A DNA stretch of 46,315 nucleotides from assembly GCA_012520315.1 (NCBI GenBank), contig JAAYOM010000106.1, positions 1 to 46,315 of the forward strand. Reading direction: 5' to 3'. Numbering within the stretch: the first letter of the stretch is position 1; the number at the start of each line of letters is the position of its first letter. Shown here one piece after another: positions 1,833-12,773 of the stretch. The stretch is from Bacillota bacterium. GTDB lineage: Bacteria; Bacillota; Limnochordia; Darwinibacteriales; Darwinibacteriaceae. The notes below the pieces were generated by a model. It saw only the letters and a list, made by a program, of their open reading frames with translations, had not been told where the DNA came from and ran no database searches. A program made the position numbers and the translations under genes.

Positions 1833-1867
1833 AAAAAACGGGGCACCCACCTTGGTGGATACCCCGT
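1833..1867 (-). terminator. Strong intrinsic terminator after the SLH protein gene
   Basis: Minus-strand hairpin of about 14 pairs (1838-1867; ACGGGG and CCCCGT arms with an inner CC-AA-GG tip) followed by six T residues (1838-1833). It ends the exbB-exbD-tonB envelope unit and insulates it from spoVAC. Confidence 0.88.
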
Positions 1868-1887: not shown

Positions 1888-2997
1888 CTACTGAAAAACT
1901 CCTCCGGCGGATAAGGCACCGATAATGGCGCCGATTGCACCTAGGACAATGCCTATGGTGGCGAAAGTCTTGGCAGATTTCAGATCTTTATCTGCAGTCA
2001 TGCGGTATTCTGCAAAGTCTTCTTCAAGGGTCTTGATTTGCCGTTCTAGACGCTGCTCGCGAATGAGGGCAGCATTAATCTGGGCATTAACATCTGTGGA
2101 CAGTTCTGTTTTAACCGCCTCCAGGCCGGAAGTGTCTTCTTTAAGTACGATAATGTCAGCCCGGGCATCTTCGAGTTCTGCTGCCAGCTGCTGCCTGTTT
2201 TGGGTCTCCCGCTGGAGCAAAATGGCCACATTTTGCAGATCCTTTTCCAGCTGCTGGTTAGTCTGCTTTAGGGTCTGTATTTCAGTTAGAAGCTCACTGT
2301 CTGTCGCTTGCAGACTGGCAAAGACGGCCCCCTTCTCCCCTGCCCAGTTCTCCAGACCGTTAATGGCCTCTGCCTGGAGCACAAGCTCTTTCTCCAGCTG
2401 AATTACGGCGTTGATCAGTTCCGACAGACGCTGATCCGTTTCTTCGCTCATGCCTAACATCTGCTCATCCATGGCCAGCTGCACACTGACAATGCCCGCT
2501 TGAACCTGAGCCAGATCATTTTGCATAATCGACATATCATCTCGGATTTCAGAGACCTGCTTCTCCATATCCACCTGGGCACTGACAACTCTGCTCACCC
2601 GCTCCTCAGAGATGAGGGCATTATCTTCTACCCTCTTTACTGTTTCGCGGAGGACTTGCTGATCTGCATACCAGGTTGCCAAGTCCTCTTCAAAACGAAG
2701 CTGCAGCTCGCTAATTTCCTGCAGATCGCCTGAAGTACCCCTGACACGGGAAACTTCTATGTCTTCCAGCAGACGGTTGATCACATTGGCCAAGGCATAG
2801 CGGTCCACAGCCCTGGTGCCCTGGAATGTACCGTCTTCAAACACTGTCAGATACCCTCTGGCAATGGCGTTGTTCACCGCGTGATATGCCCAGTGGTCTG
2901 TGGGAACATCAGTAACGTTGGCCGACACTCCTATGGGCAGCAGCATATTCACGGCGAGTATTGCCAGCAGCCCATAGACAATTCTGTTCTTTTTCAT
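1888..2997 (-). CDS. SLH domain / coiled-coil / C-terminal membrane-anchor protein (Omp-alpha-like envelope tether)
   Basis: A 369-residue exported protein. Residues 1-26 are a signal peptide (MKKNRIVYGLLAILAVNML). Residues about 28-76 form one SLH domain (DVPTDHWAYHAVNNAIARGY, then DGTFQGTRAVDRYALANVIN), the subtype seen in outer-membrane-linked proteins of diderms. Residues about 90-340 are almost continuous heptad-rich coiled coil (Glu, Gln, Leu, Asp). The C-terminus is one glycine/alanine-rich hydrophobic segment (about 345-366, IGIVLGAIGAIIGAL). This order (SLH, long rod, C-terminal membrane anchor) is that of Thermotoga Omp-alpha, which ties the outer membrane to peptidoglycan. There is no beta-barrel, so it is not a full OmpM porin. 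ATG lies 8 bases after GGAGG and 21 bases after the preceding gene. The tether role is inference. Confidence 0.75.
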   Translation of the reverse strand: MKKNRIVYGLLAILAVNMLLPIGVSANVTDVPTDHWAYHAVNNAIARGYLTVFEDGTFQGTRAVDRYALANVINRLLEDIEVSRVRGTSGDLQEISELQLRFEEDLATWYADQQVLRETVKRVEDNALISEERVSRVVSAQVDMEKQVSEIRDDMSIMQNDLAQVQAGIVSVQLAMDEQMLGMSEETDQRLSELINAVIQLEKELVLQAEAINGLENWAGEKGAVFASLQATDSELLTEIQTLKQTNQQLEKDLQNVAILLQRETQNRQQLAAELEDARADIIVLKEDTSGLEAVKTELSTDVNAQINAALIREQRLERQIKTLEEDFAEYRMTADKDLKSAKTFATIGIVLGAIGAIIGALSAGGVFQ

Positions 2998-3018
2998 TAA
3001 GTAAGCCTCCTCACCCGT

Positions 3019-5037
3019 TTATGGTTGAATGATAATGTCTCTATGTTCGATCACTAGAGATGGCGGCTCTAGGATACCTTGCCTGGTTTGCACCCGTGCC
3101 CGATCCACTGAGACTCTGCCCAGACCAGCAGTCTTAGCCCGGAAGTGAATTGTCACCAGCGTGCCGTAGGAGAGTCGAAGTTCGTTTTCGGCCCCCCGAT
3201 CCCCTCTCAAACCAAGCACCTGTCCGGTGGCGTTTGAGACGGTAGGCATGTGCCAGTCTCCGTCTACAAACAAAGTTCCCCGGGAGATGTCCAGGGTCTG
3301 GCCGACTATCTCCAGATGCTCTGGGTCAAAGGACAGATCCAGCTCCGCAGCTATGAAATCATGGATGTTCGTGGCCCAAATTGGCAGTGAGAAGTAATCG
3401 CCGGCGTTAACCAAGCCGCCCCCTGCCACCTGAGGTTCTCCAATCCATACCTTGGGTTTCAGTTCCGGCACAATGATAAACATGTTTTCCACTTTCTGCT
3501 GGCCCCGCTCATCGATTGTGCGGAGTGAATACGGCAGAGGACCAGAAAACCCATCTTTCGGCCTGAGCAGCCACTTAAAGGTAACCTCCTGGCCAGGTTC
3601 AATTGTACCAGGAAAGCGCTTTGCATTCTGTCCCTGCACTAACTCCAGTCCGAGGGGATAAAGAATCTCAAATGTTCCTCCGTAGAACTTCGTACCCCCG
3701 TCATTGCGAACTACCGCCTTAGCTTCAAAGGTGGACGGTTCATAACGTTCATCACTGATACCCAAGCCGGGAGGTCCGCTAAAGAGCACCTGCAGCCGGG
3801 CGGGACTGAGCACCTGCACATTTCTCCTCACCCTGTTAGGCTCGCTGTTCAGGGCTGTCACTTCAACTTCGTAAGTAAATGTACCCTCTGAAATGCTATG
3901 CACACCTACCTGCCATCCTGTCTGCTTAGTTTCTCCGACTTCAAGGCTGTCTAGCTCAACTTTAGCAGGGCTGCCGACTAACTGCAAGCCTGGCGGCAGT
4001 TTCAGCTCTGCCACCACATTCCGGGCTTCGCCTTGTCCCTCATTTTGGACATAGGCGATAATGGAGAAGGTCTGGAATCCGTCTGGATCAGTGGTGATCT
4101 CTGCAGGCGATGTTACACCTAGCATCAGGTCGCCGGAGGCAATGGTCACACCGCCTAGTCCATAGTAAGACACATAACTTCTTACTTCTCCCGGTGCCAG
4201 GGAAACCTGATCCCAGAACAAGGCGATGGCACTGTCGAGCTCCCACTCGCCGAGGCGTTCGAAATCTCGACCTGGAGTAAAGTCAAAGTTCCAGGGATTA
4301 TCGGCTAAACTGCCCCAGTTTGTAAAGTAAACCCGATCGGGTGTAGTCACCCCGGGACCGGTCAAAGTCCCCTGGGACATGACCTGGGGATTGGCCAAAG
4401 AGTCAAAGGCCTGCCAAAATTGGGGCATATCCTGGGCATAGTACACATGATCAGTGGTTATGGCCCGGTCATCAACACGAAACGGGGCGCCGTCATTGCT
4501 GCCGAGCATGGTATCTAGCATCAGACGCAAACCGACCATATGGGGTACAGAGTCTACATTCTCCACATGATACTCGATCTGGGCAGTATCCAGCAGACCT
4601 GTGGTGCTGCTTCGGGTAATGCTGAGAATCTGCCAAACCTCGACAGGTCCAAGCCTCCAGCTGCTTTCTATTTTGTCATCAACAATGGTGGGAGGTTGAA
4701 TCATCTCACCGTAGAGAGCGTCAAAGCCTGCTCGCCGATCTGTTTTGCCACCGAAAACCCAATTTTGATTGTCTATGCGAACTGTGGTGTAGGAAGTCCA
4801 AGGATCATCACCGCCGTAAATTAGGTGCTTGTTCTGATCAGTCGTTCGATCAGGGTCTCCTCCTGTTGTCCCGACCGAAAAGCGGCCCGTGTCAGCCTGA
4901 TCGGCATTTACCACAATTCGAATGTACTCGTTATCGATTTGCTCCTTCGGTACTGCAGCCAAAACCGTGGTGACGAAGGAACAAGAAAGCGTCATCATGA
5001 GTACTGCGACTAAAGCAACTGCAAACTTCCTTCGCAT
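3019..5037 (-). CDS. Large secreted protein with CARDB/DUF11-like repeats and a C-terminal cohesin-like domain, function unknown
   Basis: About 672 residues starting at MRRKFAVALVAVLMM; the longer reading frame begins 36 bases upstream, but ATG at 5037 has the ribosome site (AGGGGGG). A signal peptide ends near residue 27 (TTVLA/AVP). Residues about 30-320 are a beta-rich region of unknown family (IRIVVNADQADTGRFSVGTT near the start). Residues about 330-530 look like two Ig-like CARDB/DUF11-type modules (AYVQNEGQGEARNVVAELKL; VVRNDGGTKFYGGTF). Residues about 537-672 resemble a cohesin fold (AELDLSFDPEHLEIVGQTL, LVTIHFRAKTAGLG). No dockerin or membrane anchor is visible. It follows tonB by 17 bases, so an envelope or outer-surface role is likely. 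I do not recognise the N-terminal family. Confidence 0.7.
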   Translation of the reverse strand: MRRKFAVALVAVLMMTLSCSFVTTVLAAVPKEQIDNEYIRIVVNADQADTGRFSVGTTGGDPDRTTDQNKHLIYGGDDPWTSYTTVRIDNQNWVFGGKTDRRAGFDALYGEMIQPPTIVDDKIESSWRLGPVEVWQILSITRSSTTGLLDTAQIEYHVENVDSVPHMVGLRLMLDTMLGSNDGAPFRVDDRAITTDHVYYAQDMPQFWQAFDSLANPQVMSQGTLTGPGVTTPDRVYFTNWGSLADNPWNFDFTPGRDFERLGEWELDSAIALFWDQVSLAPGEVRSYVSYYGLGGVTIASGDLMLGVTSPAEITTDPDGFQTFSIIAYVQNEGQGEARNVVAELKLPPGLQLVGSPAKVELDSLEVGETKQTGWQVGVHSISEGTFTYEVEVTALNSEPNRVRRNVQVLSPARLQVLFSGPPGLGISDERYEPSTFEAKAVVRNDGGTKFYGGTFEILYPLGLELVQGQNAKRFPGTIEPGQEVTFKWLLRPKDGFSGPLPYSLRTIDERGQQKVENMFIIVPELKPKVWIGEPQVAGGGLVNAGDYFSLPIWATNIHDFIAAELDLSFDPEHLEIVGQTLDISRGTLFVDGDWHMPTVSNATGQVLGLRGDRGAENELRLSYGTLVTIHFRAKTAGLGRVSVDRARVQTRQGILEPPSLVIEHRDIIIQP

Positions 5038-5054
5038 TCGTGCTCTTCCCCCCT

Positions 5055-6074
5055 CTATGGTGCATTCAGCCAACTAACCTCTCCGTACTCAAGTCTGGGA
5101 ACAATTCGATTGCTGTCACCTTCCTTGGCGAAGACAACTGCAACCTCCATCCTGTAATCATAAGGTTGACTCTCAAAGAACCACCTATTTTGAATATGTG
5201 ATACAGCTTGGAAATCTAAGCGCTCATCCCCTGAACCTCTCTCCAGGGTCACTTCCTGGAGCACCCCTGCGGCTGAGACGTCGATAGCCAAGAACACTAT
5301 CCCTTCAACCTGGTCATGCTCTGCATTCTTAGGGTACAAAGGCGCGCCGCCGCCATGCAGATCCCGTCCGCTTGCCGGTGGCGGAGGTGCTGGAGGTGCG
5401 GTCTCAGCTGTGCCTGTTCCGGACTGGGCAGTACCTGACTCATCACTTGCGCCCTCGGTGCCTGTTCCAGATCCACTCTGGTCAGAAGGTCTTTCCTGGG
5501 GTTCAGGCCGGGTCTGCGCCGGTGGTTGAACCGGTTCCCTTGGCTCTGTCTCCACAACAACCTCTGGACCTTCGGGGCTCGTGAGCAGCTCACCCTGTTC
5601 TACATTTTCAGGGACCTCAGGCACTTCAGGAACCTCGGGCGCCTCGGGAACTTCGGGTACCTCGGGAACCTCTTCCGCCATCTCTGGCACTTCAGGCTCG
5701 ACTGGTTCCACTTCGGTTACAGGCTCGGGATCTGGCTCTACTGGGCTGGCCTGTTCAACTTGGGCTTCCGGCACTTGGGCCTCCTCGGGCTCGGCTGTCG
5801 CCTGTTCCTGTGGAGGTTCATCTATTTGCGGCCGGGGCTCAGTTACTCTCGGAACCGTTGATTGGGAGAGAGGATCCGTCACCGGAGATTGCCGTGGATT
5901 AACAGATGTCTCAACATGCATAACCTGAACAACGCCTCCTCCTGCAAGTCCAGGAGCGTCAACTTCTAAGAGGGAACCCAAATCTGGCAATGCAAAAAAA
6001 AGGATGGCGTGGAGTATAATGGAAATTAAAATAAACCGATTTAACGGTGCATCATCACCAAAGGGGTTTTGCAC
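5055..6074 (-). CDS. tonB: TonB-family energy transducer
   Basis: Links the proton motive force of an ExbB/ExbD motor to an outer-membrane partner. The 339 residues have TonB architecture. An N-terminal membrane helix (residues about 14-30) contains the conserved SxxxH pair (Ser18, His22 in ISIILHAILFF). A long Pro/Glu/Val spacer follows (about 50-220, with repeats such as EVPEVPEAPEVPE and PEPVTEVEPVEPEVP). Residues about 240-335 are the TonB C-terminal domain (APLYPKNAEHDQVEGIVFLA, then GSGDERLDFQAV and the NRWFF segment). GTG start, 7 bases after GGAGG. Directly downstream of exbB and exbD. No TonB-dependent receptor is encoded in this window, so the substrate is unknown. Confidence 0.88.
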   Translation of the reverse strand: MQNPFGDDAPLNRFILISIILHAILFFALPDLGSLLEVDAPGLAGGGVVQVMHVETSVNPRQSPVTDPLSQSTVPRVTEPRPQIDEPPQEQATAEPEEAQVPEAQVEQASPVEPDPEPVTEVEPVEPEVPEMAEEVPEVPEVPEAPEVPEVPEVPENVEQGELLTSPEGPEVVVETEPREPVQPPAQTRPEPQERPSDQSGSGTGTEGASDESGTAQSGTGTAETAPPAPPPPASGRDLHGGGAPLYPKNAEHDQVEGIVFLAIDVSAAGVLQEVTLERGSGDERLDFQAVSHIQNRWFFESQPYDYRMEVAVVFAKEGDSNRIVPRLEYGEVSWLNAP

Positions 6075-6091
6075 ACCTCTCCCTCCTTCCT

Positions 6092-6496
6092 TTACGTTCC
6101 TTGTTCAACCGCTAAGCCTAGGCGATAGCCGCCTACACCGCGTATATGATCCAGCGCCCTGACCACATGCTCATAGCGAACTTCTTTGTCCGCCTTGACA
6201 ATCACAAAGATGTCAGGGTTAACCTGGAGTCTTGCAGCCAAGTCCTGTTCGAGCTCGGTGCCGGTAACGCTGCGGCCGGAGACATAAAAAGCGCCAGACT
6301 TGTCCACAAGCACTTCAAGACTTGTGCTGGTTTGGGCAGTACCGGTGACTGCCCGGGGCAGCTCCACATCCAGGCCCATAGGCTCAGTCTTCAGCGTAGA
6401 GAAGACCATGAAAAACACCAGCATAAAAAACATTACGTCAATCAATGGCGTTATATCCGGGCTGTTACGCCTTCTCTTGGAACGTTGAAAATTCAT
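6092..6496 (-). CDS. exbD: ExbD/TolR-family proton channel subunit
   Basis: Inner-membrane partner of ExbB. In 134 residues it shows a basic N-terminus (FQRSKRRRNSPD), a single membrane helix containing the proton-carrying aspartate (ITPLIDVMFFMLVFFMVF, Asp near residue 20), and a periplasmic domain with VIVKADKEVRYEHVVRALD, typical of ExbD/TolR. The start codon overlaps the exbB stop (TAATG), so the two are translationally coupled. ExbD rather than TolR is favoured because tonB follows directly. Confidence 0.92.
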   Translation of the reverse strand: MNFQRSKRRRNSPDITPLIDVMFFMLVFFMVFSTLKTEPMGLDVELPRAVTGTAQTSTSLEVLVDKSGAFYVSGRSVTGTELEQDLAARLQVNPDIFVIVKADKEVRYEHVVRALDHIRGVGGYRLGLAVEQGT

Positions 6497-7110
6497 TACA
6501 TGTCACTCCTTGCATCCAGCACATTAAGGAGCTCATTCGATTTTTTGCTCATATCCGCAATCAAGTTATTGACAACGCCATTGAGATAGCTGGCCAAGAT
6601 CATGGTAGGCACTGCGATAATCAGGCCGGCCGCTGTCGTAATTAACGCTTCGGCAATACCTATACTCAGGGCAGAAGCCTGGGTTACCCCTTCCATGGCG
6701 CCCAGTACATTAAAACTTTGGATAATACCGGTAACAGTCCCTAAAATTCCCAGTAAAGGCGAAGCCGTCACGATTAGATCCAGGGCGCCGAGACGCCTTT
6801 CCATCTTATGAATCTCTTCCTGGCCCACCACTGACATATGCTCTTTAATTTCCTCTCGTCCTTGGTCATAATGGGCTATTCCCGTGGCCAGAACTGCAGC
6901 AACAGGCCCCCGTGATTTTTTTGCAATCTGCATTGCTTCCAGCACTTTACCCTGACCCAACGACAGTTTAATATCTTCCAAGAGGTCATCGGTATCAACT
7001 CTTGCCCGCAGCAAATACCACAACCTTTCAATCCCGATTGCTACGGCAAAAACAGAGCATAGAAGCAATGGAATCATTACTGGACCACCTAGAGCGAAAA
7101 TTCTGAGCAT
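6496..7110 (-). CDS. exbB: ExbB/TolQ/MotA-family proton channel protein
   Basis: Membrane motor subunit of 204 residues with three hydrophobic segments (about 9-32, 107-130 and 148-172) and the conserved MotA/TolQ/ExbB core (ASPLLGILGTVTGIIQSF, then ALITTAAGLIIAVP). With ExbD it forms the proton channel powering TonB. It is the first gene of a five-gene unit (exbB, exbD, tonB, cohesin-like, SLH protein). Upstream of it are about 170 bases containing a terminator and a possible promoter. The ribosome site GGAGGGG precedes ATG. Confidence 0.93.
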   Translation of the reverse strand: MLRIFALGGPVMIPLLLCSVFAVAIGIERLWYLLRARVDTDDLLEDIKLSLGQGKVLEAMQIAKKSRGPVAAVLATGIAHYDQGREEIKEHMSVVGQEEIHKMERRLGALDLIVTASPLLGILGTVTGIIQSFNVLGAMEGVTQASALSIGIAEALITTAAGLIIAVPTMILASYLNGVVNNLIADMSKKSNELLNVLDARSDM

Positions 7111-7200
7111 AAATACCCCTCCGTTTACTTTCTAAAAGAAATGCATTCTTTAATGTTCGACACTGCCTAAGAGAATCCTTGCCCCTCTGCGCAGTTTCCG

Positions 7201-7241: not shown

Positions 7242-7266
7242 AAAAAGAACCGCTAAATCGCGGTCC
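7242..7266 (-). terminator. Intrinsic terminator after the GNAT gene
   Basis: Minus-strand hairpin GGACCGC/GCGGTTC with loop GATTTA (7247-7266), followed by TTTTTCTTCT. It ends the dacF-spoIIA-sigF-PHP-GNAT unit. Confidence 0.8.
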
Positions 7267-7283
7267 TTTACTCGTATTGACAC

Positions 7284-7832
7284 TTAGACAGCCTGTGGGT
7301 GTTTGCCCTCTAGAAACTGGGCCTTTGTAATACCCATCAGGAAAATTTCTTCTCTGATGTTCTGCTCGGTCAGCCTATGCAAGCGTCCCTCTTTCTTGAA
7401 ACCAGCTTTCTCGTAACAGCGCAGTGCAGCCTTATTGTCGGCTTGCACACGCAAGTACACACGGCTTAGGTTCATGTTGAGAAAGGCTTTGCGTAAAAGG
7501 GTGATAACCGCATCGGTTCCATACCCTTGACCTCGCATCTCACCACTAAAGATCTCAATTTTCAGTTCCGCTTCACCACTTCGCCAGGCGATATGATCGA
7601 GTTCAATTTCTCCAATATTTTGATCCTCCAGGAGAATTTGATAATGCACCCGGTAGCGATGGGGACTGACTAACTCTAATGTTACCTTGCCCCCCATTAA
7701 TTGCGACATCTGCCCCAACTCCTCAAGTTCCGAATTAGCTTCGCGACTTCTAATTTTACGGTCGAAGGAGATTCTACTCAACATATTCGGGTAAAAACGG
7801 CAATGCCCTGCAGGGAAAAACCGGCAGCGCAA
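7284..7832 (-). CDS. GNAT-family N-acetyltransferase
   Basis: Transfers an acetyl group from acetyl-CoA to an unknown substrate. The C-terminal two thirds shows the GNAT fold: acceptor strands (HYQILLEDQNIGEIELDHI), the coenzyme A loop in motif A (SGEMRGQGYGTDAVITLLRKA, R-x-x-G-x-G/A type) and motif B (NLSRVYLRVQADNKAALRCYEKAGFKKEGRL), typical of the RimJ/RimL-like branch. The start is unclear: TTG at 7832 lies 3 bases after the PHP stop without a clear ribosome site, and ATG at 7784 is an alternative, so about 16 N-terminal residues may be wrong. It ends just before a terminator. Confidence 0.85.
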   Translation of the reverse strand: MRCRFFPAGHCRFYPNMLSRISFDRKIRSREANSELEELGQMSQLMGGKVTLELVSPHRYRVHYQILLEDQNIGEIELDHIAWRSGEAELKIEIFSGEMRGQGYGTDAVITLLRKAFLNMNLSRVYLRVQADNKAALRCYEKAGFKKEGRLHRLTEQNIREEIFLMGITKAQFLEGKHPQAV

Positions 7833-7835
7833 GGG

Positions 7836-8660
7836 TCACTTCAGCCCATCCCGTGCCTGCGCAAGGTCTTCTAACCAGTTCCAGGGTATTTTATACTTCC
7901 CTAGATAAATATGGTCCTTTCCGCCCGGCCCGTGGCAGTCTGAACCTCCGCTAGGCAGAAGGTTCAGCTCTTTTGCCACCTCCAGGAAGTGTTGAGTCTG
8001 TTTTTCTGTATGACTGTAGTGAATTACTTCCAGCCCAACCAAGCCGGCGTCAAGAAGCGAAGGCAAAACGTTCAGATCTGTCAGCAAACCTGGATGGGCC
8101 AGGACCGGAACACCGCCTGCCCCGCGAATCAACTCCACTGCCTGTTCGGGAGTTAACTTAGGCCGCTTAACGTAAGCTGGGGCCCCTTGTCCTATATAGG
8201 CGTCAAAGGCCTCCTGTTTTGTCTGTACAATCCCCTTCTTCACCATAGCCGAGGCAATATGGCTGCGGCTCAGGACATCCCGATGGGAAAACTCCTGTAC
8301 ATCTGCTTCGCTCAAAAAGATGCCTAAACCGTCCAGACGATCCAGGATCTTCTCCACACGGGCGATGCGTTCTTTCCTCAAAGCAGTCAGTTTGTTCTGT
8401 AAGGGTTCATAAGCGGGATTGATCCACAGTCCAACAATATGCACTTCTTCCCCATTATGACCTGCCGCACTCAACTCAATTCCAGGTATCACCTGCAGAT
8501 CCTTCCGCGCAGCCTTCAGGGCAGCTTCAATCCCCGCTGTGGTATCATGATCAGTGACAGCTAGAGCAGCCAGACCGGCCCCTCTTGCCTCGCGCACCAG
8601 CTCTTCTGGCGTCCAGGTACCATCGGATTCGGTTGTATGTAAATGTAAGTCAGCAAACAA
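7836..8660 (-). CDS. PHP-domain phosphoesterase (RNase AM / TrpH-YciV family)
   Basis: Metal-dependent phosphoesterase of 274 residues. The metal-binding PHP motifs are all present: DLHLHTTESDGT at residues 4-15, VTDHDTT near 35-41, PGIELS near 59-64, LAHPG near 185, and the closing GGSDCHGPG near 238. Family members act as nucleoside 3',5'-bisphosphate phosphatases or 5'-3' RNA exonucleases maturing 5S rRNA. The position after sigF has no obvious functional meaning. Confidence 0.88.
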   Translation of the reverse strand: MFADLHLHTTESDGTWTPEELVREARGAGLAALAVTDHDTTAGIEAALKAARKDLQVIPGIELSAAGHNGEEVHIVGLWINPAYEPLQNKLTALRKERIARVEKILDRLDGLGIFLSEADVQEFSHRDVLSRSHIASAMVKKGIVQTKQEAFDAYIGQGAPAYVKRPKLTPEQAVELIRGAGGVPVLAHPGLLTDLNVLPSLLDAGLVGLEVIHYSHTEKQTQHFLEVAKELNLLPSGGSDCHGPGGKDHIYLGKYKIPWNWLEDLAQARDGLK

Positions 8661-8674
8661 AATTATCCTCTTTT

Positions 8675-9385
8675 CTATAACTCGTATCGCAATTGTCGAA
8701 TAATCCTCGCTTCGATGCGGGAGACCTGCCCCTGGGAAATACCTAGTTCTTTTGCCACTTCACTTTGACTTTTCTCTGCAAAATAACGCAGCAAAATGAT
8801 GCGCCGCTCATCAGGGGCCAAACTTTCCAGGGCCTGTTTGAGCATAAGATTTTCGTGGTCTCCAGCTATCGCCACAAACTCCTGAAACTCAGGTGCCTCT
8901 GATCCGCCCCCGGCGATCCGGGCTTGCAGTGAATACACAGGAGAAACAGCATCGAAAGCAAACACTACATCTTCCGGTTCCACTTCGAGCTCAGCAGCAA
9001 TCTCCGAAATGGTGGGGTTGCGTCCAAGTACCTGACCTAGCCTGTCTTTGGTCTGCAGGGCTTCGGAGGCAAGTTTCCTTGTGGACCTACCCACCTGCAA
9101 AGTCGATGCCTTCCGCAGATGCTGTTTGATCTCCCCCATAATCTTGGGAACCGCGTAGGTGGAAAACCTTACATCATAATCGAGGTCAAAGTCACTGATC
9201 GCCTTGAGCAGACCTAAGGCGCCGATCTGTACAAGATCCTCATATTCTAGGCCGCGCTCTAAGAACCTTCTGGCAATACTGTGTACTAACGGAAGGTTCG
9301 CTTCTACCAATTGGCTGCGGGCCGCCAGGTCACCTTGCTGGGAACGGGAAATCAAGTGCCGGAACTCTGCCTGTGCCATTGGCAT
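8675..9385 (-). CDS. sigF: RNA polymerase sporulation sigma factor SigmaF
   Basis: First forespore-specific sigma factor. The 236 residues contain sigma-70 region 2 (RRFLERGLEYEDLVQIGALGL, then FDLDYDVRFSTYAVPKIMGEI), region 3 (RNPTISEIAAELEVEPEDV) and region 4 with its helix-turn-helix (SQSEVAKELGISQGQVSRIEA). SigF and SigG are close paralogues; the assignment rests on its position 2 bases after spoIIAB in the conserved spoIIAA-spoIIAB-sigF order. Activity would be held by SpoIIAB and released by SpoIIAA. Confidence 0.96.
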   Translation of the reverse strand: MPMAQAEFRHLISRSQQGDLAARSQLVEANLPLVHSIARRFLERGLEYEDLVQIGALGLLKAISDFDLDYDVRFSTYAVPKIMGEIKQHLRKASTLQVGRSTRKLASEALQTKDRLGQVLGRNPTISEIAAELEVEPEDVVFAFDAVSPVYSLQARIAGGGSEAPEFQEFVAIAGDHENLMLKQALESLAPDERRIILLRYFAEKSQSEVAKELGISQGQVSRIEARIIRQLRYEL

Positions 9386-9387
9386 CC

Positions 9388-9819
9388 CTAACTCTCCACA
9401 TCTTTGACCCGTTTAATCATGGTGACTTTAGTCCCTTTGTCCACTTCAGAGGCGACCAACACCTGATCCATGTACTCATGCATAAAAGTGAAACCCAGAC
9501 CCATCCGTTCCTCGGGAATGCTGGTAAACCCAACCTCCTGGGCTTGCTCAATATCGGCAATACCCTGCCCAAAATCTTCAATGATGATGCTTAACTTGGG
9601 CCCCTCATAACTGGCTTCAATTTTTACCAGGCCTTCCTGCAGAGCATAGCCATGGATGACCGAGTTAGATACAGCTTCTGAGACGGCCACTTTAATATCT
9701 TCAAGTTCATCCAATGTCCAGTCTAACTGGCTGGCAAACAATGCAACCGCCGTACGAGCAAAGGCTACATTTCGGGTATCGCTCGGGATCTCCAGTTTGA
9801 TCCAGTTTGTAGTTGTCAT
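9388..9819 (-). CDS. spoIIAB: Anti-SigmaF factor / serine kinase SpoIIAB
   Basis: GHKL-type kinase that binds and inhibits SigmaF and phosphorylates SpoIIAA. The 143 residues show the N-box (DIKVAVSEAVSNSVIHGY), the G1 box (IIEDFGQGIADIEQA) and the G2 region (ERMGLGFTFMHEYMD), all conserved in functional SpoIIAB. Located between spoIIAA and sigF. Confidence 0.97.
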   Translation of the reverse strand: MTTTNWIKLEIPSDTRNVAFARTAVALFASQLDWTLDELEDIKVAVSEAVSNSVIHGYALQEGLVKIEASYEGPKLSIIIEDFGQGIADIEQAQEVGFTSIPEERMGLGFTFMHEYMDQVLVASEVDKGTKVTMIKRVKDVES

Positions 9820-9832
9820 TAAAGTCGCCTCC

Positions 9833-10171
9833 TTAAACCCGCTCTAGGACATCTTTGGTTGACTTGGCAAACTCTGATATTTTCTGAAAGCCCGACATCT
9901 GCAGGATACGCTTAATCTGGGGATTGGCTTGCACAAAAAAGAGCCTTCCTCCCCGTTCCTGGACTACCCGATAACGGCCGAGAATGACTCCCAAGCCTGA
10001 ACTATCGATAAAGGAAAGACCTTTTACATCCATGATCAAATCCTTAATAGCAGAGTGGGTTTCAAAGAGTTTAGTCAGCTTGTCTTTAAATTCAGGCGAC
10101 GTGTGTAAGTCGAGCTCGCCCTGCAAAGTAACTACAAGTGCTTGTCCCACCAGTTCAAAATCATACTGCAC
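9833..10171 (-). CDS. spoIIAA: Anti-anti-SigmaF factor SpoIIAA
   Basis: STAS-domain regulator; its unphosphorylated form displaces SigmaF from SpoIIAB. The 112 residues include the phosphoserine site in KGLSFIDSSGLGVILGRY (near residues 50-67) and the usual EGxLDLHTSPEFKD-like first half (GELDLHTSPEFKDK). Start is GTG, 7 bases after GGGAGG. First gene of the spoIIA operon, downstream of dacF with a 72-base gap that carries a SigmaH-like promoter and a hairpin. Confidence 0.97.
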   Translation of the reverse strand: MQYDFELVGQALVVTLQGELDLHTSPEFKDKLTKLFETHSAIKDLIMDVKGLSFIDSSGLGVILGRYRVVQERGGRLFFVQANPQIKRILQMSGFQKISEFAKSTKDVLERV

Positions 10172-11456: not shown

Positions 11457-12773
11457 TTATAACTCTTTTGCGGTGATTTTCCGGTAAATCGTCGGTGCCA
11501 GCAAGGGCTTGCCGTCCGCTATTTCAAACGCTTGTAGCACTTTGGCCGCAGCTGCTTCAAGCTTCTGCCTATCATTGGCATAGAGTGTGGCTAGGGCCTG
11601 ACCCTTTTGGATATGGTCTCCAACCTCCGTTTGCAGTTCGATGCCTACCGCAAGATCGATGACAGAGTCCTTGTGCTCCCGGCCGGCACCTAGCTCCATG
11701 GCTGTGACACCTATTACCAGGGGGTCAACCTTGTGCACATAGCCGGCAGCCGGTGCCAAGACCTCCTTGGCATGCCCCGCCTGCGGAAGCAAGCTGAGAT
11801 CATCTACAACTTTTGCGTCGCCGCCCTGAGCCTTGATCAGCTCTCTGAACTTGCCCAGGGCCTGCCCTGTCCGGAAGTTTTCCTCTGCCATCCGGCGCGC
11901 TTCACTGCGAGAATTCGTGATATCTGCCACTAACAACATCTCAGCAGAAAGTTCCAGACATAGCTCGGTGAGCCGGGCAGGCCCTTCACCCCGCAGAGTA
12001 AGAATAGCCTCTTTCACCTCTAAAGCATTGCCAACAGCCCTGCCCAAAGGCTGATTCATATCAGTTACCAAGGCTACTGTTTCCCGCTTGGCAAGCTGGC
12101 CGATCTGCACCATGGTCCTGGCCAGTTCCAGGGCTTCTGCTTCAGTTTTCATAAACGCCCCCGCCCCAACCTTCACATCCAGCACGAAGCCGTCTGCTCC
12201 AGCTGCAATCTTCTTGCTCATGATGGACGATGCGATCAGGGGAATCGAGTCTACAGTTGCTGTGACATCCCGCAGGGCATAGAGGAGCTTGTCAGCGGGA
12301 GCCAGCTGACCGGTCTGACCGACCAGGCTGAGTCCAATCTTGTTGACCTGGGTGATAAACTGTTCAGGACTGAGGTCGACCTTGAAGCCGGGAATGCTTT
12401 CCAGCTTATCGACAGTACCGCCTGTATGTCCCAGCCCCCGTCCTGACATTTTGGCCACAGGGACACCAAGACTTGCCACCAGCGGGGTTACAATCAAGGT
12501 AGTGGTATCACCGACGCCTCCTGTGGAGTGTTTGTCCACTTTGACACCTTGAATCCCGCTAAGATCCAGAGTGTCCCCTGAACGGGCCATAATTAAAGTC
12601 AGCTCCGCTATTTCCTCCGCATCCATGCCCTGGAAATAGACGGCCATAATCCAGGCAGCCATTTGGTAATCCGGAATCTCGCCCCGCACATAACCTGTGA
12701 TCAAAAACTCCAGTTCGGAGCGGGAAAGACGCTGCCCATCGCGTTTTTTCTGAATTAAGTCTACAGCATGCAT
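11457..12773 (-). CDS. pdp: Pyrimidine-nucleoside phosphorylase
   Basis: Splits thymidine and uridine with phosphate to give base and (deoxy)ribose-1-phosphate. The 438 residues start MHAVDLIQKKRDGQRLS and contain the family signature SGRGLGHTGGTVDKLESIPG (near 110-130), the phosphate-binding KVDKHSTGGVGDTTT and SSIMSKKIAAGADG. The C-terminal barrel-sandwich domain ends in KPLLAPTIYRKI. Pdp rather than DeoA is favoured by gram-positive context; its product feeds DeoB, encoded 15 bases upstream. Confidence 0.94.
   Translation of the reverse strand: MHAVDLIQKKRDGQRLSRSELEFLITGYVRGEIPDYQMAAWIMAVYFQGMDAEEIAELTLIMARSGDTLDLSGIQGVKVDKHSTGGVGDTTTLIVTPLVASLGVPVAKMSGRGLGHTGGTVDKLESIPGFKVDLSPEQFITQVNKIGLSLVGQTGQLAPADKLLYALRDVTATVDSIPLIASSIMSKKIAAGADGFVLDVKVGAGAFMKTEAEALELARTMVQIGQLAKRETVALVTDMNQPLGRAVGNALEVKEAILTLRGEGPARLTELCLELSAEMLLVADITNSRSEARRMAEENFRTGQALGKFRELIKAQGGDAKVVDDLSLLPQAGHAKEVLAPAAGYVHKVDPLVIGVTAMELGAGREHKDSVIDLAVGIELQTEVGDHIQKGQALATLYANDRQKLEAAAAKVLQAFEIADGKPLLAPTIYRKITAKEL

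Follow-up and report, generated by a model that had tools for sequence, protein, structure and literature searches.

A conserved ExbB-ExbD-TonB cluster with a cohesin-ended secreted protein and an SLH protein in outer-membrane-bearing Bacillota, a candidate for the work of Tol-Pal

The window analyzed in this work is a stretch of 46,315 nucleotides from a Bacillota bacterium whose genome is a 2.33-Mb draft, 88% complete. Its minus strand carries five closely packed genes that read as one unit, in the order and at the positions given in an earlier note on this DNA. The first two encode stator proteins, one exbB/tolQ-like (6496-7110, 204 aa; Pfam MotA_ExbB, 2.6e-29) and one exbD/tolR-like (6092-6496, 134 aa; ExbD, 8.6e-31). 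They are followed by tonB (5055-6074, 339 aa), whose product has a transmembrane helix, a proline-rich linker, and a C-terminal TonB_C domain (about 5151-5345; 1e-8). The fourth gene encodes a secreted protein that ends in a cohesin-like domain, hereafter P672 (3019-5037). Its open reading frame has 684 codons at full length (3019-5073, minus strand) and the ATG start gives 672 residues, in agreement with the size that the note had ascribed to its secreted cohesin-like protein. From its N-terminus, P672 has an N-domain (about 4126-4953), a NEW3 domain (about 3853-4068), and the cohesin-like C-terminal domain (about 3124-3408). The last gene encodes an SLH/coiled-coil protein (1888-2997, 369 aa), with the SLH domain at about 2800-2913 (Pfam SLH, 2.4e-5). 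The matches of the five genes to MotA_ExbB, ExbD, TonB_C, Cohesin (as well as NPCBM_assoc/NEW3), and SLH all exceed the curated Pfam cut-offs.

The unit is bordered by terminator-like hairpins on both sides, as previously proposed. The one located 3' of the SLH gene (1838-1867, minus strand) has a 13-bp stem and a T run. The other (7244-7269, minus strand) is conserved in relatives and is the end of an upstream GNAT/PHP unit, downstream of which a separate transcription unit begins. The two genes of this upstream unit, absent from the earlier note, encode a GNAT acetyltransferase (7284-7832), which is a neighbor across the class, and a PHP-domain phosphoesterase (7836-8660), both recognized with Pfam on the minus strand. 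They sit between exbB and sigF (8675-9385, minus strand), with spoIIAB (9388-9819) and spoIIAA (9833-10171) further upstream. On the other side of the cluster, Pfam identifies spoVAC (1335-1784) and spoVAD (292-1296), which together span positions 292-1784 of the same strand.

The five genes are found in the same order in all 47 judged loci of the window's class and in 35 of the 36 true P672 loci outside it. The profile search recovered the complete order at 82 of 84 judged loci. Locus L153 was added by inspection: its TonB-like open reading frame is divergent and has the S-x3-H helix. Locus L186 encodes a giant protein that has only the N-terminal part in common with P672 and is not an orthologue. 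With L153 included, no judged locus of a true P672 departs from the order (47 in the class and 36 outside it). Such a conservation of order is far beyond chance. The median intergenic gaps are about 15 bp, and the genes are therefore probably co-transcribed and partly translationally coupled. P672 is present in 70 of the 73 genomes of the class (39 of 42 genera), and a profile built from the class sequences detects it at full length in 88 of 398 genomes of the phylum, spread over 34 families. Drafts make up most of these genomes.

The genomic context is less constant than the cluster. The order sigF-(PHP)-GNAT-exbB-exbD-tonB-P672-SLH spans nearly the whole class. However, the class survey revealed spoVA genes 3' of the cluster at no loci but those of the window's family and two others, and in many loci of other classes the cluster lies away from sigF. 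The description of an island placed between sigF and spoVA is thus not supported, since the sigF side is old and class-wide and the spoVA side is local. Nor is this placement a key feature of the system, given the many other classes that carry the cluster elsewhere and its retention in the non-sporulating Halanaerobium praevalens (see below). The genomic place is beside the point and it is the cluster itself that matters. At one locus of the class (L090, genome G021), pdp and the PHP gene still flank the cluster, and there is no longer a dacF, spoIIAA, spoIIAB, or sigF gene nearby; sporulation may have been lost in this lineage.

The note's suggestion that the host probably has two membranes is supported. 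The window's genome has one strong match to Omp85 (E 8e-57), hence an outer-membrane assembly gene, and Omp85 is found in 71 of the 73 genomes of the class. Across the 398 genomes of the phylum, 87 of the 88 with a full-length P672 have Omp85, versus 15 of the 310 lacking P672 (Fisher p 1e-70, a value that ignores shared ancestry). The cluster is therefore essentially absent from genomes without Omp85, and the wide occurrence in monoderms that the note had envisaged as an objection is not observed. The sole P672 genome without Omp85 (G425) is a 91%-complete draft from a family whose members have Omp85. Genomes without Omp85 have only partial matches to P672, several of which correspond to the N-domain within much larger proteins.

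Two families (f44 and f74) account for 13 of the 15 genomes with Omp85 and no P672. We infer that both are probably Negativicutes, and 12 of these 13 genomes encode Plug-domain receptors, some of them many. Hence, an outer membrane can do without P672. This group aside, the five genes occur in nearly all of the sampled Bacillota that have an outer membrane. Within the class, three genomes (G001, G020, and G023) have Omp85 and no detectable P672, and we rejected the idea that P672 loss tracks Omp85 loss at this level. One of the three, G020, is rated 98% complete and also lacks a TonB_C match, such that a real loss is possible. We identified LpxC in 31 of the 73 genomes of the class and in none of the 37 genomes of the window's order (the window's genome and 36 others), their Omp85 notwithstanding. 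LpxC is also missing from family f12. The presence of Omp85 along with the lack of LpxC indicates that the outer membrane of the host is most likely devoid of lipid A, and the gene content of the order suggests that this extends to all of it. Of the genes that the note proposed to search for in the host (lpx, BamA, and receptors), the outer-membrane assembly gene was thus found; LpxC, throughout the order, and Plug receptors, in the window's genome, were not.

The key residues of the motor are conserved. In ExbB, the pore threonines T125 and T159 are kept in all 92 sequences and the channel glutamate E154 in 80 of them, and D20 of ExbD is invariant (91 of 91 sequences). The transmembrane helix of TonB carries Ser18-x3-His22, both residues being invariant in 48 sequences, and these occupy the place of the SHLS motif by which TonB docks on its motor (PMC12204202). 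Assignment of the stators to the Exb or Tol type is less clear-cut. The NCBIfam models score the exbB product higher as tolQ (96 bits) than as exbB (58 bits), and the exbD product higher as tolR (72 bits) than as exbD (53 bits), all of these scores being below the cut-offs (221 for tolQ and 127 for tolR). A stator tree places the island stators apart from those linked to receptors, with a support of only 31.

What does this motor act upon? The window's genome has exactly one TonB_C match, the tonB of the cluster, and we failed to identify any Plug-domain receptor in this 88%-complete assembly. Plug domains are also lacking in 64 of the 73 genomes of the class and in 58 of the 88 genomes with P672. 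The Plug model nevertheless works in this group, as it finds receptors in 9 genomes of the class and 44 of the phylum. The note had proposed to check if tonB co-occurs with P672, and this is the rule: 59 of the 68 TonB_C matches over the cut-off in the class are directly 5' of P672. Among the nine others, five lie on contigs that also carry a Plug receptor, three are in the same receptor-bearing genera, and the coordinates of the last (G053:C61) make it look like a cluster tonB split by a contig break. Where receptor regions were taken, a separate ExbB-ExbD pair was present too in four loci. Since the receptors of the class are usually adjoined by a second TonB, the TonB of the island is not the receptor TonB. 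The island motor probably has a load other than a receptor, for which these observations are the strongest evidence. The best reading of the single TonB_C match and the missing receptor in the window's genome remains the one of the earlier note, namely that the TonB motor works on the product of a neighboring gene.

Work published in 2009 on Halothermothrix orenii reported exbB, exbD, and tonB together without a receptor and raised the possibility of another function, while allowing for divergent receptors (PMC2626281). Among diderm Firmicutes, Ton systems have been listed only in Negativicutes (PMC12204202). One may ask if the cluster is an ordinary Ton uptake system, with receptors too divergent for the Plug model and with a P672 that binds nutrients at the cell surface. 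Its TonB_C, ExbB, and ExbD are genuine members of their families, 30 of the 88 genomes with P672 do have Plug receptors, the N-domain of P672 has a fold like those of carbohydrate enzymes, and the H. orenii authors left room for such receptors. Yet, the model detects receptors in this very group, these receptors usually come with their own TonB elsewhere in the genome (and their own ExbBD where examined), and Pfam reveals no outer-membrane barrel gene within the cluster. We thus regard uptake as unlikely, even if it is the alternative that withstands the data best.

P672 comprises a signal peptide, a beta-super-sandwich N-domain, NEW3, an Ig-like domain, and the cohesin-like C-terminal domain, as judged from domain matches, structure models (pLDDT 88), fold searches, and an alignment of 52 sequences. 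A fold search with the modeled N-domain retrieves the N-domains of GH94 and GH116, galactose mutarotase, and the periplasmic domain of YidC, and a search with the whole chain gives only generic multi-sandwich matches (integrin and similar, TM about 0.2). The cohesin domain is closest to those of ScaB-type scaffoldins. The N-domain also occurs within very large proteins (about 1200-2600 residues) at four loci from genomes without Omp85 (L185, L186, L199, and L200).

The SLH protein combines its SLH domain with a coiled coil and a hydrophobic C-terminal tail, the latter in 81 of 91 orthologues, and its coiled coil is very variable, with total lengths from 213 to 1480 aa. This layout makes it a candidate peptidoglycan tether, although the tail could lie in the inner membrane instead. 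At two loci the coiled coil has grown to give proteins of 1447 (L077) and 1480 residues (L078), and TonB is short there (264 and 255 aa). We considered that coiled-coil length might be matched to TonB length and found no clear relation (Spearman 0.19, p 0.07). The L077 protein has no Pfam SLH match, although its N-terminus is SLH-like in appearance. L149 has a second SLH/coiled-coil gene, located upstream of exbB (12072-12764, minus strand), and similar profile matches are found upstream of exbB in L152, L158, and L167. Just downstream of the cluster and on the same strand, 11 loci outside the class carry a gene for a SleB-like cell-wall hydrolase (L174:10384-10968, L181:6110-6703, L169:10257-10835, and eight more); both of the two tested have PF07486.

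The likeness to scaffoldins and the recurrence of the P672 N-domain in giant proteins where the genome lacks Omp85 would fit a motor that energizes surface-layer assembly or secretion, with P672 and the SLH protein as cargo or as an exported scaffold akin to a cellulosome cohesin. This is improbable, to a slightly greater degree than uptake. Full-length P672 is almost confined to genomes with Omp85, one SLH domain with a hydrophobic tail at the very end of the protein resembles the layout of a tether more than that of an S-layer lattice protein, and the cluster in the window includes no secretin or secretion gene.

Upstream of exbB we identified a bipartite promoter-like element (7156-7179, minus strand; AGGATTCTCTTAGGCAGTGTCGAA) made of AGGA and, 17-18 nt on, TGTCGAA, with a single match in the window versus 0.04 expected by chance. 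TGTCGAA is the commonest 7-mer upstream of exbB (46 of 87 loci, from -200 to +60) and is never reversed. It precedes any other gene of the region in at most 3 loci and is found in 3-4% of random stretches. Taking the 38 non-redundant loci with TGTCGAA or TGACGAA upstream of exbB, the spacing to AGGA is 17-18 nt in 37, across classes. The boxes of sigma-H have a spacing of 11-12, and a strict sigma-H pattern occurs in 48 of 87 loci. TGTCGAA is also the core of the Spo0A box. The element fits the consensus sequences of sigma-H promoters, RNAGGAWWW at -35 and RNNGAATWW at -10 (PMC8510167). It is thus a candidate sigma-H-like or 0A-box-like element, and because TGTCGAA fits both, the regulator may be either.

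Halanaerobium praevalens, a species that does not sporulate (PMC3156398), keeps the whole cluster and misses the element (L174), from which it follows that the cluster is neither specific to sporulation nor confined to spore formers. Response regulator-like and kinase-like genes lie just before exbB in this species (L174:3353-5427). A sporulation device, for example one that handles the outer membrane at engulfment under SigF or SigH, would account for the class-wide linkage to sigF and for the sigma-H-like or 0A-box-like TGTCGAA before exbB, but is very improbable in view of H. praevalens, of the many loci that sigF does not adjoin, and of the persistence of the cluster in G021 where the spoIIA-sigF genes are gone.

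Among known systems, Tol-Pal is the one that the cluster most invites comparison with. The succession of two stators, an arm, a soluble adaptor, and a wall-binding tether is that of tolQ-tolR-tolA-tolB-pal in Escherichia coli, and both systems would combine a proton stator pair, a transmembrane force arm, a secreted adaptor, and a tether, with a tie to the outer membrane. The stators score higher with the tolQ and tolR models than with those of exbB and exbD, under the cut-offs in each case. However, the arm of the cluster is proline-rich with a TonB_C domain, P672 is predicted to be a chain of beta-sandwich, Ig, and cohesin domains where TolB is a beta-propeller, and the tether has an SLH domain, a coiled coil, and a C-terminal tail where Pal is an OmpA-domain lipoprotein. 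Pfam detects no Pal-type OmpA-domain lipoprotein in the cluster, which has SLH instead, and neither ybgC nor cpoB was recognized beside it. PF00691 proved unsuitable as a test for Pal, because most genomes have about one match and the one examined, the only match of the window's genome, adjoins a MotA-like open reading frame and is probably MotB. The likeness is thus one of gene order, of the types of parts, and of setting. The genes pal and tolB have been reported missing from atypical diderms, among them the diderm Firmicutes (PMC8871954).

With Ton systems, the cluster shares the ExbB, ExbD, and TonB_C families, the conserved motor residues, and the S/H motif, but not the receptor, which is missing from the window's genome and from most carriers of the cluster, the receptors of the class usually having their own TonB. 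As Tol-Pal fails on the fold of TolB and the type of Pal, and Ton uptake on the receptors, the cluster would be a separate variant of the PMF-driven systems that exert force across the envelope. The orphan ExbB-ExbD-TonB of H. orenii is the same observation of a motor without receptor, made in one Halanaerobiales genome; that text (PMC2626281) is silent on the cohesin domain of P672, on the SLH protein beside it, on the conservation of order across the phylum, and on the likeness to Tol-Pal. The OmpM and SlpA tethers have an N-terminal SLH domain and a coiled-coil stalk that is meant to reach the wall (PMC10628300). The SLH protein of the cluster shares these two features and, unlike OmpM, has a short hydrophobic helix at its end and no C-terminal beta-barrel. 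A closer layout is that of Omp-alpha (OmpA1) of Thermotoga, described as an outer-sheath anchor with SLH, a long coiled coil, and a hydrophobic C-terminus in passages that name no motor partner for it (PMC3387000). Thermotoga maritima, used as a control, has no TonB_C match. We found no description of the five-gene cluster in the searchable literature, a scope outside which much of the subscription literature lies.

Given the parts and their order, the conserved motor, its independence from receptors, and the association with Omp85, we lean, with some reserve, towards a machine that spans the envelope of outer-membrane-bearing Bacillota and uses Ton-type parts for the work of Tol-Pal. TonB would be its arm, with the N-terminal helix docking on the stator via the Ser/His motif and the C-terminal domain reaching through the wall. 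P672 would be a soluble secreted adaptor in the role of TolB, and TonB may grip it by strand addition, by analogy with TolA, which grips the N-terminus of TolB in this way and is thought to pull TolB off Pal, the freed Pal being able to bind the wall (PMC7391070). In turn, P672 would bind the SLH protein, the tether in the role of Pal, whose SLH domain would sit on the cell wall and whose tail would lie in the outer membrane. A pull on P672 would then free or move the tether, and cycles of such pulls would allow the outer membrane to follow the wall at growing and dividing sites. In spore-forming relatives, the sigma-H-like promoter suggests that output may rise at the transition to asymmetric division.

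More tentatively, and with somewhat less confidence than in the machine itself, we propose that diderm Bacillota, except the probable Negativicutes, may have their own force-driven machine for tethering the outer membrane, with P672 and an SLH protein standing in for TolB and Pal as the adaptor and the tether that a TonB arm operates. The Tol-Pal logic may have been invented independently here, or the machine may be a relic of a transition from Ton to Tol; its loss would have accompanied that of the outer membrane. This cluster provides a named and testable candidate, one that occurs partly in cultured species, for the means by which diderm Bacillota and other Terrabacteria keep their outer membrane in place and constrict it without Tol-Pal. 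If true, this would inform the question of how TolA evolved from TonB, and that of which features disappeared as Bacillota became monoderm.
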